In this document: positions 20,716 to 24,966 of the stretch, in pieces | Position numbering within the stretch: the first letter of the stretch is position 1 | Layout: every line of letters starts with the position of its first letter | Virus record (IMG/VR): IMGVR_UViG_3300021425_000164 | Coordinates: 1 to 26,235 of that record | Source of the DNA: a virus | DNA length: 26,235 nucleotides | Direction: 5' to 3' (one strand) | Translations under genes and position numbers: made by a program | Notes under the pieces: model-generated | Told to the model about the DNA's origin: nothing | The model's input: only the letters and a program-made list of their open reading frames with translations | The model's database searches: none

Positions 20716-21065
20716 TTTTTGCGGCCTGACAGCTTGTGGATCTGTCGGTCGTCTTCGTAGGCGACGCCGTTGAGAGCGTCGCTGACCGATTTGATGTAGT
20801 TGTCCACGTCCCCTCGCAATTTCGAATCAGGCTCGTCTGGCATCTCGGTGATGCAGACGGTGATCCGCTTGGGGCTGAACGTTACTGCCAGAGATACGGG
20901 ACCGTCAAACATCGGTCCTTTGTAGTGGTCTTTGACGAGTTGTTCGAACGTGCGGGTCTTGGCTGACGTGTAGGCGTAGCCACCCTTCATGGAGAACCGT
21001 GGCCGCTCCTTAGCTTTGGGGCGGTGCGGGATAACGAACTTGTGCTGCTTCCCTTTGGATGGCAT
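20712..21065 (-). CDS. rusA: RusA-like Holliday junction resolvase
   Basis: A 117-aa protein, close to the 120 aa of E. coli RusA. RusA enzymes are dimeric Mg-dependent endonucleases that cut four-way junctions, in phages probably resolving branched replication and recombination intermediates. The N-terminus has the typical PHRPKAKERPRFS pattern. The catalytic block is RGDVDNYIKSVSDALNG followed by VAYEDDRQI, giving acidic residues D86, D88, D96 and D105/D106. Its ATG shares a base with the primase stop (TAATG), and GAGGAG precedes it. The next gene starts in its stop codon (ATGA). The context with primase, helicase and nucleases fits a replication/recombination operon. Confidence 0.88.
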   Translation of the reverse strand: MPSKGKQHKFVIPHRPKAKERPRFSMKGGYAYTSAKTRTFEQLVKDHYKGPMFDGPVSLAVTFSPKRITVCITEMPDEPDSKLRGDVDNYIKSVSDALNGVAYEDDRQIHKLSGRKK

Positions 21066-21952
21066 TAGAGGCTCCTCAGCGCTGCTTCAACCATCCGTTC
21101 GATCTGGCGAGGCCCGTCTTCACGGTCTTTGAACTTGCCAACCCGTTCGTCTAGTTGGGTTACCCAATGAATTGTAGCCTCAATGGAGTAGTCACGTTCA
21201 AGGAGCGACACGGCGAAGCGGTACAAGGTGCTGCTGCGGTCTTGTTCGAACGGGTTCTCCCAGATGCGGCGAGCACGGCCCGTGAAGTCGTCGGAGTCTT
21301 GGTTGCCGCTGTAAGCGAACGCAGGTTTGGCTGGTTCGGTCTGCAGGTACAGGGCGTGGAGCCGTTCGAACTGTTCGGTGGGGCAGCGGGTTTCCCATGC
21401 TTGGTCGGTGAACTCTTCCCAGGTGAGGTCGCCCATCTGTTGCCGTCCGATGTTGCGGGTGTGGGCGTAGGGGAGGCGTAGGCAGTTGCCGATCTTGCCT
21501 GGGCCGAGCTTGGTTTGTTTGGGGTAGACCTCTTTGATGGGCGTGTTAACGATGCGGCATGCGCCGATCATGCAGTTGCGTGCCATCGCAGCCTGAAGGG
21601 GCTGCTGCAGGTACACCCAGACGTGGAAGCCTTTGGACCGTGATGGTTCTTTCCAGGCTTGGATGGAGAGCCGTGACAGGACGGCTACGACGTTGTCGGC
21701 GTGTGGTTCGGAGGCGTCGCCTTCGTCTAGGTCTACGGCGACCCAGTTGACCCAGAACAGGCCGTTCTGTTCGACCAGTGGGTACACGCCGAGGGCTTCG
21801 TCGCCGTACAAATGCTGTTCTATGAGTGCCGTGTAGCTGTCACCACGAGCTACTACAACCTCATCGTTTTCCAGCATTGGCCGTACCCCCTCGGCCACGT
21901 CGGCAACGAAACCCCCAGCGTGGAGAGCTGCGAACTTGTCTACCCGATCCAT
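21065..21952 (-). CDS. DNA primase of the archaeo-eukaryotic (AEP) type
   Basis: A 295-aa protein. The ATG at 21952, beginning MDRVDKFAAL, is chosen because the frame further upstream is a shadow of the helicase gene; the start overlaps the helicase stop by 13 nt. Motif 1 is VAVDLDEGD (D74, D76). Motif 2 is EPSRSKGFHVWVYL (H110). It is followed by EVYPKQTKLGPGKIG and CLRLPYA, a block shared with TOTE-type and phage AEP primases. The C-terminal 80 residues are helical, like the PriCT-type domain that often follows AEP domains. It would make RNA or DNA primers for replication, beside the DnaB-like helicase. AEP primases are less common in podoviruses than the T7-type primase-helicase fusion. 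Confidence 0.8.
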   Translation of the reverse strand: MDRVDKFAALHAGGFVADVAEGVRPMLENDEVVVARGDSYTALIEQHLYGDEALGVYPLVEQNGLFWVNWVAVDLDEGDASEPHADNVVAVLSRLSIQAWKEPSRSKGFHVWVYLQQPLQAAMARNCMIGACRIVNTPIKEVYPKQTKLGPGKIGNCLRLPYAHTRNIGRQQMGDLTWEEFTDQAWETRCPTEQFERLHALYLQTEPAKPAFAYSGNQDSDDFTGRARRIWENPFEQDRSSTLYRFAVSLLERDYSIEATIHWVTQLDERVGKFKDREDGPRQIERMVEAALRSL

Positions 21953-22917
21953 CGGTCGTCGTGGGGTACGTCGGACTCGTAGTAGGTCCGCACTAGGCCG
22001 CAGTCGGGGTCCATGAAGTAGTCGATCGGGGGTGAGGTGATCTGACAGGGTGGACGTTTGTTTTTGCACAGATCCAAGCTGATCGACACGGAGTGGATTC
22101 GTTTCTCAGCGTCGGTGAGCTTGGGGTCGTCTCGTTTGCGGAACACGTTGAGCTGCAGGATGGCGTACTCGTCGGCGTTGAACTTGCCGTCGTCCATGCC
22201 TCGGCTGGAGCCTCGGGTGGAGCCTTTGCCTGACTGGTGAACCAGCCCGACGGGCAGGTTCTCGTTCTCGGTCCATTCCTTGAGGTTCTTGAGCACCTTG
22301 GACACGCCTTCGTAGCCCGATGCCATCGGAAGCTGTTCAAGGAAGTCGACCATCACGAACTTTGGTTTGTGCTGCCAGTAGTCCTCGCATTCCCTCATGG
22401 CTTCCGACATCTGCGGGAACTTGAGGGCGCTGGGAAAGATCTTGAGACGGTCTAGGTACCGTTCCTTGGCCTCCGTGATCTCGGCCATGTAGAGGGGGTC
22501 TTCGGCAGCGAGTGCTTGTTCTACTTCAGCAAGGTTGCGTTGGTACAGCAGTGCGTAGAGCTTGGCGACCACGAGAACTTCGGGTTCGTCGGGGGTGAAG
22601 ATCACGCCGTGGAACTCTTCGTCTTCTTTGAGGTTCCAGGCCAGCGACGAGAGCAACACAGCCGACTTGCCGCTGTGTGCCCTGCCTGTGACGACGAGCA
22701 CGTCTGACGGCCACACGCCACGCATGCGCTGATCGATTTCGTCTAGCCCGAGGTAGAAGCAGTCTTCTGATCCTTTGGCGTACTGCACCCAACGGTCGAC
22801 GGCGTCGCCTGTCGGTGTGAAGTATTTGTATTCCTTTGAAGCCCCCAGAGGGAGATCGACGCCCCCCAACAGGGCGTCGATCTCCTCAGTGCTGAGGGCG
22901 CTTTCGCCCTCACTCAT
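21940..22917 (-). CDS. Replicative DNA helicase, DnaB-like (SF4 RecA fold)
   Basis: A 325-aa protein starting in an ATGA overlap with the previous gene. It has a RecA-type ATPase core: Walker A G78-RAHSG-K84-S85; the region FTPDEPEV with the catalytic Glu (E111) after a strand; and Walker B KFVMVDFLEQL (D191). A sensor-type LVHQSGKG lies at about 225-232, and NVFRKRDD at about 257-264 fits motif H4 with an Arg finger. The N-terminal domain of full DnaB (about 150 aa) is reduced to about 50 residues, so this resembles a DnaB C-terminal-domain-only phage helicase. It would unwind the fork as a hexamer, working with the AEP primase encoded downstream. Confidence 0.85.
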   Translation of the reverse strand: MSEGESALSTEEIDALLGGVDLPLGASKEYKYFTPTGDAVDRWVQYAKGSEDCFYLGLDEIDQRMRGVWPSDVLVVTGRAHSGKSAVLLSSLAWNLKEDEEFHGVIFTPDEPEVLVVAKLYALLYQRNLAEVEQALAAEDPLYMAEITEAKERYLDRLKIFPSALKFPQMSEAMRECEDYWQHKPKFVMVDFLEQLPMASGYEGVSKVLKNLKEWTENENLPVGLVHQSGKGSTRGSSRGMDDGKFNADEYAILQLNVFRKRDDPKLTDAEKRIHSVSISLDLCKNKRPPCQITSPPIDYFMDPDCGLVRTYYESDVPHDDRWIG

Positions 22918-23660
22918 CAGCGGCCCTGGTAAGCGAACTGCTGAAGTTCAGAGCGGCGGGTAGCCCAATCCCAGTCTCGGGCCTGATCCTGCGTCTCTCC
23001 GTTGAGGACATCCCAGACCTTGAGCGGCACATTGCTGTCGCCTGCGTTGATCCAGATACCCATGTCGCGCTCAACAAAGATGCCTGCCATTCCCAACGCA
23101 GCAGCAGTGACGCTGAAGTTCGGGTAGTTGGTACCCTTCTGGGTGGTGTCGGTGGTGCCATCGGCCTTCTCCTTCACCTTGTAGGCTTCCACGCCGTTAT
23201 CCCACTTGGCGGGATGGAAAGCGAGGATGTTGAACGCTGCCTGCTTCTTGTCGGCGTCCTTGCCGACAGCAAACTCGGTGCGGGGCATGACCCGACCGCT
23301 CATTCGCCCGCCGTTCCCTGCGGGAGCGGGGGGAGCTGAGGGTGCCGTGGTAGAGGACACAGCGGCACTTGATGCCGTCGGGCCACCACTGGGCGCTGCT
23401 GGGGCGGTGGGTTGCGTAGGAACTGCAACGGGCCGAACGCCTGTTTCCAACCTCCGCATAACGAGGCCGTCTTGGGTCAGGTCGTACTCGCAACCTGCCT
23501 GCTTGAGCACCTCGCTCTTGACCTGAGCAAACAGATCCTTCGCCACGGCGATCGGATCGGTGAGTTCGTCAAACTCCTGCTCAATGATGAGCGAGTAGTC
23601 AGCCGTTTCGTACGGCTGCTCGCTGACCTTCTGCGTGAAAGACACGCTTACTTTGGGCAT
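22917..23660 (-). CDS. Hypothetical replication protein with Pro/Ala-rich linker (possible ssDNA-binding role)
   Basis: A 247-aa protein with an AAAGGA-type ribosome-binding site. It has three parts: an N-terminal domain (about 1-70, KVSVSFTQKVSEQPYETADY, a beta-then-helix pattern), a disordered Pro/Ala/Ser/Thr linker (77-118), and a C-terminal domain (about 120-247) with aromatic-rich segments such as AAFNILAFHPAKWDNGVEAY and GIFVERDMGIWINAGD. The latter may be an OB-like beta barrel. The place directly before the helicase, with ATGA coupling, suggests a replication accessory, possibly an ssDNA-binding protein. An acidic SSB-type C-terminal tail is absent. The assignment is an inference from location and layout. 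Confidence 0.5.
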   Translation of the reverse strand: MPKVSVSFTQKVSEQPYETADYSLIIEQEFDELTDPIAVAKDLFAQVKSEVLKQAGCEYDLTQDGLVMRRLETGVRPVAVPTQPTAPAAPSGGPTASSAAVSSTTAPSAPPAPAGNGGRMSGRVMPRTEFAVGKDADKKQAAFNILAFHPAKWDNGVEAYKVKEKADGTTDTTQKGTNYPNFSVTAAALGMAGIFVERDMGIWINAGDSNVPLKVWDVLNGETQDQARDWDWATRRSELQQFAYQGR

Positions 23661-24470: not shown

Positions 24471-24489
24471 CCTGTCTCCTTGGGATGGT

Positions 24490-24539
24490 GATGGCGGGAA
24501 GACGGGAAAGGAGAACAGAAAAACCGTCCTCCCGCCATC
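24490..24539 (-). promoter_or_regulatory. Hairpin ahead of the nuclease gene with an anti-Shine-Dalgarno loop
   Basis: On the minus strand GATGGCGGGAGGACG and CGTCTTCCCGCCATC form a 15-bp stem with one G-U wobble and a 20-nt loop. The loop contains TCTCCTT, exactly complementary to AAGGAGA at the ribosome-binding site of the nuclease gene just downstream (24475-24481). A pseudoknot or alternative pairing could hide the site. This is the second of two stacked hairpins in the 124-nt gap. Confidence 0.6.
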
Positions 24540-24551
24540 GTACCTGTACTG

Positions 24552-24585
24552 GGGGGAGGGGGGCTGTGGGAGGCCCCCCTCCCCC
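24552..24585 (-). promoter_or_regulatory. 13-bp GC-only-type hairpin with G-quadruplex potential
   Basis: GGGGGAGGGGGGC (24552-24564) and GCCCCCCTCCCCC (24573-24585) pair perfectly around 8 nt. It lies right after the HTH gene on the minus strand. There is no T-tract, so it may be a partial terminator or a stabilising hairpin. The plus strand has G runs suited to a G-quadruplex. The arms resemble those of the capsid-gene hairpin at 3333. Confidence 0.6.
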
Positions 24586-24588
24586 ACT

Positions 24589-24598
24589 GTAACGTTAC
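24589..24598. other. 10-bp palindrome GTAACGTTAC at the HTH gene stop
   Basis: The perfect palindrome GTAACGTTAC covers the stop codon of the HTH gene and lies 3 nt before the G-rich hairpin. It could be an operator, perhaps for the HTH protein itself, but the same 10-mer also occurs inside the fibre gene at 6231-6240, so it may be chance. Confidence 0.3.
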
Positions 24599-24966
24599 TG
24601 TACCTCGCCTGCAACCTTTTTCAGTGGGTGATGTCCTGCGAGGCGTTCATGTGCGGCTTTCTGGGCTTGATCTGACACGCGCTGTCGTGACACGCCCATC
24701 TCTCGGGCGAGCTGAGACGACGAGCCACGCCCACCAAAGAACACCACGTCGTGGACGGTCTGGCGCTTCTCGTAGTGCAGCAGCGCCAGCATCTTCTCCA
24801 ACGACTTGACGCACTTGTCGATTGACCCAAGGCGCTGCACCTTGGAGGGCAGCTTCATTGGGACTAGCTCTTGCCTGAGCTGTTCAAACTCGGCAATGAC
24901 CGAGTCCCAATCAGTCTCGTTGATTTCTTTCCAAACCCCGTTTACGGGGTGAAACGGTTCAGCCAT
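24595..24966 (-). CDS. HTH DNA-binding protein (putative regulator)
   Basis: A 123-aa protein. Residues 82-108 (SSSQLAREMGVSRQRVSDQA) form a clear helix-turn-helix: a positioning helix with Ala-Arg-Glu, a turn Met-Gly-Val-Ser, then a recognition helix RQRVSDQ. The sequence resembles the HTH of sigma factors and of MarR/Xre-like small regulators (LAREMGVSRQRVSD). A long charged helical N-terminal part (about 20-70) could mediate dimerisation. No metal or ligand site is seen. It is coupled to the preceding 53-aa gene. The structured leader of the nuclease gene follows its stop, so it may regulate the downstream block. Confidence 0.72.
   Translation of the reverse strand: MAEPFHPVNGVWKEINETDWDSVIAEFEQLRQELVPMKLPSKVQRLGSIDKCVKSLEKMLALLHYEKRQTVHDVVFFGGRGSSSQLAREMGVSRQRVSDQAQKAAHERLAGHHPLKKVAGEVQ

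Follow-up and report, generated by a model that had tools for sequence, protein, structure and literature searches.

The leader of a Cas4-like nuclease gene in this phage DNA probably carries a conserved cis-acting pseudoknot, in which the loop of a hairpin pairs with the Shine-Dalgarno (SD) sequence of the gene and occludes ribosome binding; on sequence comparison we put the probability of this reading at roughly 0.8. That the loop/SD pseudoknot itself is real seems very likely, and the messenger is probably able to hide its own start, perhaps as a regulated translation switch. The sequences show the hairpins, the complementarity, the covariation of the stem and of the loop with the SD, and the specificity for this gene.

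We infer both formation of the pseudoknot in the messenger and repression of translation by it, and propose the following course of events. Hairpin B would fold upon transcription and display the anti-SD in its loop, and the SD, emerging a few nt later, would pair with that loop (S2, 7–10 bp) to form an H-type pseudoknot. The SD would be concealed from the 16S rRNA tail in this form, leaving nuclease translation low or conditional, and the pseudoknot could be opened by 30S/S1 melting, by a phage or host protein, or by mRNA processing.

Hairpins and loop/SD complementarity in the leader

The window, meaning the whole 26,235-nt stretch of DNA analysed, is a 26.2-kb IMG/VR virus record. On its minus strand, a 124-nt gap between an HTH-like gene and the nuclease gene holds hairpins A and B (Table 1). 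The initial annotation had described a pair of strong hairpins ahead of the nuclease gene, separated by 12 nt, which the coordinates and folding energies bear out; it had given hairpin B a 15-bp stem and a 20-nt loop, and here the strong stem-loop stands while the sizes become 16 bp and 18 nt. Folding of the 191-nt region was 6.25 standard deviations better than that of dinucleotide shuffles, with 0/200 equalling it.

Table 1. Features of the nuclease leader and adjoining genes, in positions of the window
Feature	Position	Strand	Remarks
HTH-like gene, 123 aa	24966–24595	−	upstream of leader
Putative −35, TTGCAG	24609–24614	−	3/6 consensus matches; within end of upstream gene
Quasi-palindromic 15-mer, CAGTAACGTTACAGT	24586–24600	−	common to window-clade leaders and L012/L117/L122
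Putative −10, TACAGT	24586–24591	−	17-nt spacer; directly adjoins hairpin A
Hairpin A	24552–24585	−	5′ arm G-rich, 3′ arm C-rich; −33.1 kcal/mol folded alone
A-to-B spacer	24551–24540	−	exactly 12 nt
Hairpin B	24539–24490	−	16-bp stem GAUGGCGGGAGGACGG/CCGUCUUCCCGCCAUC, one G-U; −30.6 kcal/mol
Stem S1, 5′ arm, GATGGCGGGAGGACGG	24524–24539	−	13/13 examined pairs covary among relatives
Hairpin B loop, TTTTTCTGTTCTCCTTTC, 18 nt	24506–24523	−	UUUUU-CUG-U-UCUCCUU-UC
Anti-SD strand of S2, CTG-T-TCTCCTT	24508–24518	−	pairs with 24481–24472; covaries with SD in relatives
Stem S1, 3′ arm, CCGTCTTCCCGCCATC	24490–24505	−	covariation as for 5′ arm
Pseudoknot linker L3, ACCATCCC	24482–24489	−	8 nt
SD region, AAGGAGACAG	24472–24481	−	3′ strand of S2
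Nuclease gene, 262 aa	23682–24470	−	start ATG; PD-(D/E)XK (PDDEXK_1, RecB/Cas4-like)
Next gene	23660–22917	−	start 21 nt after nuclease stop; SD-like stretch of its own

The loop segment UCUCCUU (24514–24508) is the exact 7-bp complement of AAGGAGA at the SD (24481–24475), 26 nt downstream. This is the match that had been pointed out for the nuclease SD, and it turned out to be longer than claimed, as CUG-U-UCUCCUU with AAGGAGA-CAG gives 10 bp with one bulged U at −14.9 kcal/mol. The caution that a pyrimidine-rich loop may match an SD by chance was also justified. When the window loop alone was shuffled by mononucleotides, a match of at least 7 arose in 1324/20,000 cases (6.6%) and the energy was reached in 569/20,000. 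Since 6.6% of shuffled loops match equally well, the window by itself is weak evidence for loop/SD pairing, and it is the comparison with relatives that decides.

The loop in the window is complementary to the downstream SD and can pair with it while the stem stays intact: by an estimate from A-form geometry, L3 must have at least about 6 nt to span an S1 of 14–17 bp, and L3 in the window has 8. Such a stem is longer by one turn than the classical short optimum. In some leaders L3 has only 2–4 nt, and 2–4 of the bottom S1 pairs would have to open.

Covariation among relatives

Relatives of the nuclease, the most distant at about 41% identity, were collected from viral contigs by scanning with profiles and with single proteins. 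Upstream of the gene they share a layout of hairpin A (with a counterpart in nearly all relatives), hairpin B with CUCC in its loop, and then a GGAG-containing SD near the start, and this hairpin/SD layout is kept in about 18 clades. In stem S1, all 13 examined pairs covary, each with several standard pair types and with 26–35 sequences paired per position among 35 leaders; these counts come from hand-anchored leaders, as a MAFFT alignment had put the 3′ arm of some clades out of register.

The GGAG/CUCC core of S2 is invariant and so incapable of showing covariation. The position preceding it switches from C-G to U-A, and the downstream flanks of the SD covary with the loop, as CUG/CAG in the window, UUG/CAA in L107, GCUUCUCC/GGAGAAGC in L012, UUCUCCUUU/AAAGGAGAA in L106, UUUCUCCCU/AGGGAGAAA in L127 and GUUAUUCUCCCU/AGGGAGAAUAAC in L116, where pairing extends up to 12–13 bp. 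A C to U change in L171, a neighbour of L116, keeps its pair as G-U, and two leaders (L152 and L154) have an additional small hairpin between hairpin B and the SD and retain the loop/SD pairing. Two relatives at 63% identity (L112/L115) have the nuclease and the SD behind a different leader without an anti-SD loop, and these count against the pseudoknot explanation.

Every loop resembles an anti-SD, and for this reason each loop was compared with its own and with swapped SDs. Across 18 clade representatives, own pairs reached −14.04 kcal/mol against −11.56 ± 0.44 for swapped pairs (z −5.7; 0/200,000 permutations, which leave the phylogenetic tree unmodelled). With 12 broad groups z was −4.8, and it stayed between −3.8 and −5.0 when any one group was omitted. 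In L113 and L162 the own SD fitted no better than other SDs. The arrangement is also specific to the gene: a hairpin loop with at least 6 exact complements near the start was found in 42/52 of the nuclease leaders scored, a set with many related members, and in 2/445 other SD-preceded genes on the same contigs, these being two related copies in which no SD core is involved.

The initial annotation had proposed that the loop and the nuclease SD form a pseudoknot, and had said beforehand that relatives without covariation of stem and loop would speak against it. In the relatives that keep the gene, both the stem and the loop/SD pair covary, which argues for the structure.

Alternative roles of the loop and the hairpins

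It is possible, though we consider it unlikely, that the pseudoknot forms yet aids translation, docking the mRNA on the 30S as a standby or rpsO-like platform before protein S1 melts it. The rpsO and tisB pseudoknots do recruit 30S/S1 and that of timP activates (PMC3858243, PMC11295053), and strong SDs such as these are odd for a gene needing only low expression. Against this, S2 covers the SD core, and loop:SD pairing was stronger than pairing of the SD with the 16S tail in 20/20 leaders checked, so that occlusion is favoured.

Occlusion by simpler folds was also considered. Nested sequestration of the SD was rejected, being inconsistent across leaders (P(GGAG unpaired) 0.13–0.97). An RNA thermometer, with its SD in a weak stem that melts near growth temperature, is conceivable, as is a ligand-binding riboswitch with conserved unpaired pocket nucleotides; the pairing of −10 to −20 kcal/mol lies in a pseudoknot and not in a weak nested stem, and the leaders, read by eye, had no conserved unpaired segment except the anti-SD.

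In a high-GC sister clade the nuclease start has no SD, and CATACT or a similar −10-like box lies about 6 nt before the ATG. Starts of this kind, with CATACT or TAGGGT about 6 nt upstream, occur in L172, L198, L199, L208, L217 and L218, and they suggest a leaderless nuclease mRNA and leaderless translation. Within the clade, hairpin B is missing in L199, L200 and L215–L223 and its loop is altered in L202 and L206; SD and loop are both retained in L212–L214, and L172, L198, L208 and L209 retain the loop UCCUCUCC although the SD is gone. For the most part this pattern favours pairing with the SD as the purpose of the loop, the retained loops being the exception. Since UCCUCUCC is kept without an SD in four members, it may have another role too.

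Those four leaders are also what gives a slim chance to the idea that the pyrimidine loop is a binding site for an S1-like or phage protein, its SD complementarity arising through shared 16S-tail-like pairing; pyrimidine-rich loops do often match SDs, as the 6.6% of shuffled window loops did. A protein site of this kind would not account for own loop/SD pairs beating swapped ones even though every loop is anti-SD-like, nor for the covariation of flank pairs outside the SD, and the loop is lost or altered in most SD-less leaders, the clade having mostly lost or changed the hairpin.

The region upstream of hairpin A resembles a promoter. Most clades carry a sigma70-like promoter there whose end meets hairpin A exactly (L156, for example, has TTGACG-16-TATAAT), and the clades have a mean promoter score of 8.6/12 against 2.2 at random positions. 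The window has a weak version at the same place as the relatives' strong ones (TTGCAG-17-TACAGT, 7/12), which a standard promoter scan did not call. With such a promoter adjoining hairpin A in most relatives, the leader probably begins the transcript, as the 5′ end of a transcription unit beyond a mere operon gap. With normal promoter spacing the first transcribed base would fall within the 5′ arm of this hairpin, which is thus expected to lie close to the 5′ end of the transcript. The initial annotation had framed the leader as dedicated control of one gene inside an operon, and this framing has to be revised in view of the promoter-like element.

In the window (24552–24591) and in most clades, the −10 hexamer abuts the inverted repeat of hairpin A, which overlaps the expected transcription start. 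The repeat may serve there as a DNA operator or as a 5′-end stabiliser. The 15-mer CAGTAACGTTACAGT occurs in the leaders of two clades, one of which has it ahead of hairpin A and the other in the stretch from A to B; it was discarded as a marker, its viral matches being mostly unrelated.

Such an overlap of hairpin A with promoter and start site, together with the palindrome CAGTAACGTTACAGT in the window-clade promoter, would fit inverted repeats that act as DNA, as an operator or replication origin, and not as RNA. We regard this as very improbable for the leader as a whole, because it leaves unexplained both the loop/SD covariation of hairpin B beside the start codon and the S1 pairs kept amid freely changing sequence. 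Chance proximity of a stable pyrimidine-loop hairpin to a purine SD, which has a few-percent probability in the window alone, is refuted by covarying conservation in about 18 clades and near-absence at 445 other gene starts, leaving it next to negligible.

Known leaders, possible recurrence and gene neighbourhood

Pseudoknots at translation starts are known from other systems. The rpsO (S15) operator, with examples in E. coli and mycobacteria and thus an actinobacterial one, likewise has in its 5′ UTR a pseudoknot, made of a hairpin loop and downstream sequence, that sits at the ribosome-binding site (PMC8470358, PMC3858243). In contrast to rpsO, S2 here covers the SD itself, S1 has 13–16 bp, the controlled gene encodes a nuclease of a phage, and no protein is known to bind the leader. 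Membership in the rpsO/S15 operators was rejected, as the gene encodes a PDDEXK nuclease and not ribosomal protein S15. The T4 gene 32 leader likewise has a pseudoknot in the leader of a phage replication/recombination gene, but about 67 nt upstream and with the SD not included, and its repression requires cooperative gp32 binding. A 2010 review considered it possibly the sole viral pseudoknot in translational autoregulation (PMC3014915). This class was rejected too, the gene here being a nuclease and not a self-repressing single-strand binding protein.

In the type I toxin mRNAs timP and aapA the SD is likewise masked by a co-transcriptionally folding anti-SD, with a pseudoknot in timP (PMC11295053, PMC6733600). 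They differ in relying mostly on nested hairpins or on an activating pseudoknot, with an antitoxin RNA. SD-sequestering riboswitches of the preQ1 and SAM-II type form an H-type pseudoknot that contains the SD and has a conserved ligand pocket. The nuclease leaders differ from these: read by eye, they show no sequence conservation beyond the pairs, and Rfam has no model that fits them, as 10 relatives gave no family at the gathering threshold, and the window gave sub-threshold chance matches only. The best reading is that the leader functions like the SD-masking pseudoknots and belongs to no described family, and no earlier description of such a phage leader was found in the open-access literature. 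It would add another phage pseudoknot that lies at a translation start, independent of that of T4, conserved across many clades, strongly supported by comparison and with the SD inside. About 18 natural variants with co-evolved loop and SD are on hand for reporter tests, and the reason why phages would so consistently gate a Cas4-like nuclease is a question raised by these leaders.

Similar GC-rich hairpins with an anti-SD loop were seen before a tail-chaperone-like gene (L352), an HNH-endonuclease gene (L188) and unassigned genes (L181, L330). A pattern scan gave anti-SD-loop hairpins among the matches listed and none among the 50 hits of the scrambled control, a difference that, with such small numbers, is not statistically significant. 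Tentatively, and with some doubt, the nuclease leader could be one lineage of a recurrent phage gate, a hairpin with an anti-SD loop before unrelated genes, which would tie nuclease synthesis to an infection-cycle signal, with a factor of phage or host origin opening or locking the pseudoknot.

The nuclease matches Pfam PF12705 (E 1.2e-11) and PHROG exonuclease families. An N-terminal extension of the protein through the leader was rejected, the nuclease frame being open in 13/52 leaders, less than either other frame. The genes around it had been described as all coupled by overlap, which is partly right; the exception is the gene that follows the nuclease, with its 21-nt gap and own SD-like stretch. 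Its product (22917–23660) is a conserved protein of 240–257 aa with an SFTQKVSE..YETADYSL motif, adjoins the nuclease in many relatives, and had no match in Pfam, PHROG or PDB. It was rejected as an SSB-like autoregulator, its AlphaFold model being weak (mean pLDDT 67) and without a PDB match; conserved beside the nuclease, it could be a candidate regulator with no recognisable fold.

Contigs from MAGs with the titles Actinomycetota and Acidimicrobiaceae TMED189 carry nuclease relatives, and a WhiB-like gene (Pfam E 6e-16) lies directly upstream in one relative (L012:2168–2473). Because of the MAG titles and this WhiB gene, phages of Actinobacteria are the likely source of these leaders. The INPHARED phages gave no DNA match and a single distant nuclease at 28% identity. 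Elsewhere in the window, positions 21065–22069 encode a primase of the archaeo-eukaryotic type (AEP-TOTE); a DnaB-like helicase and RusA lie next to it.
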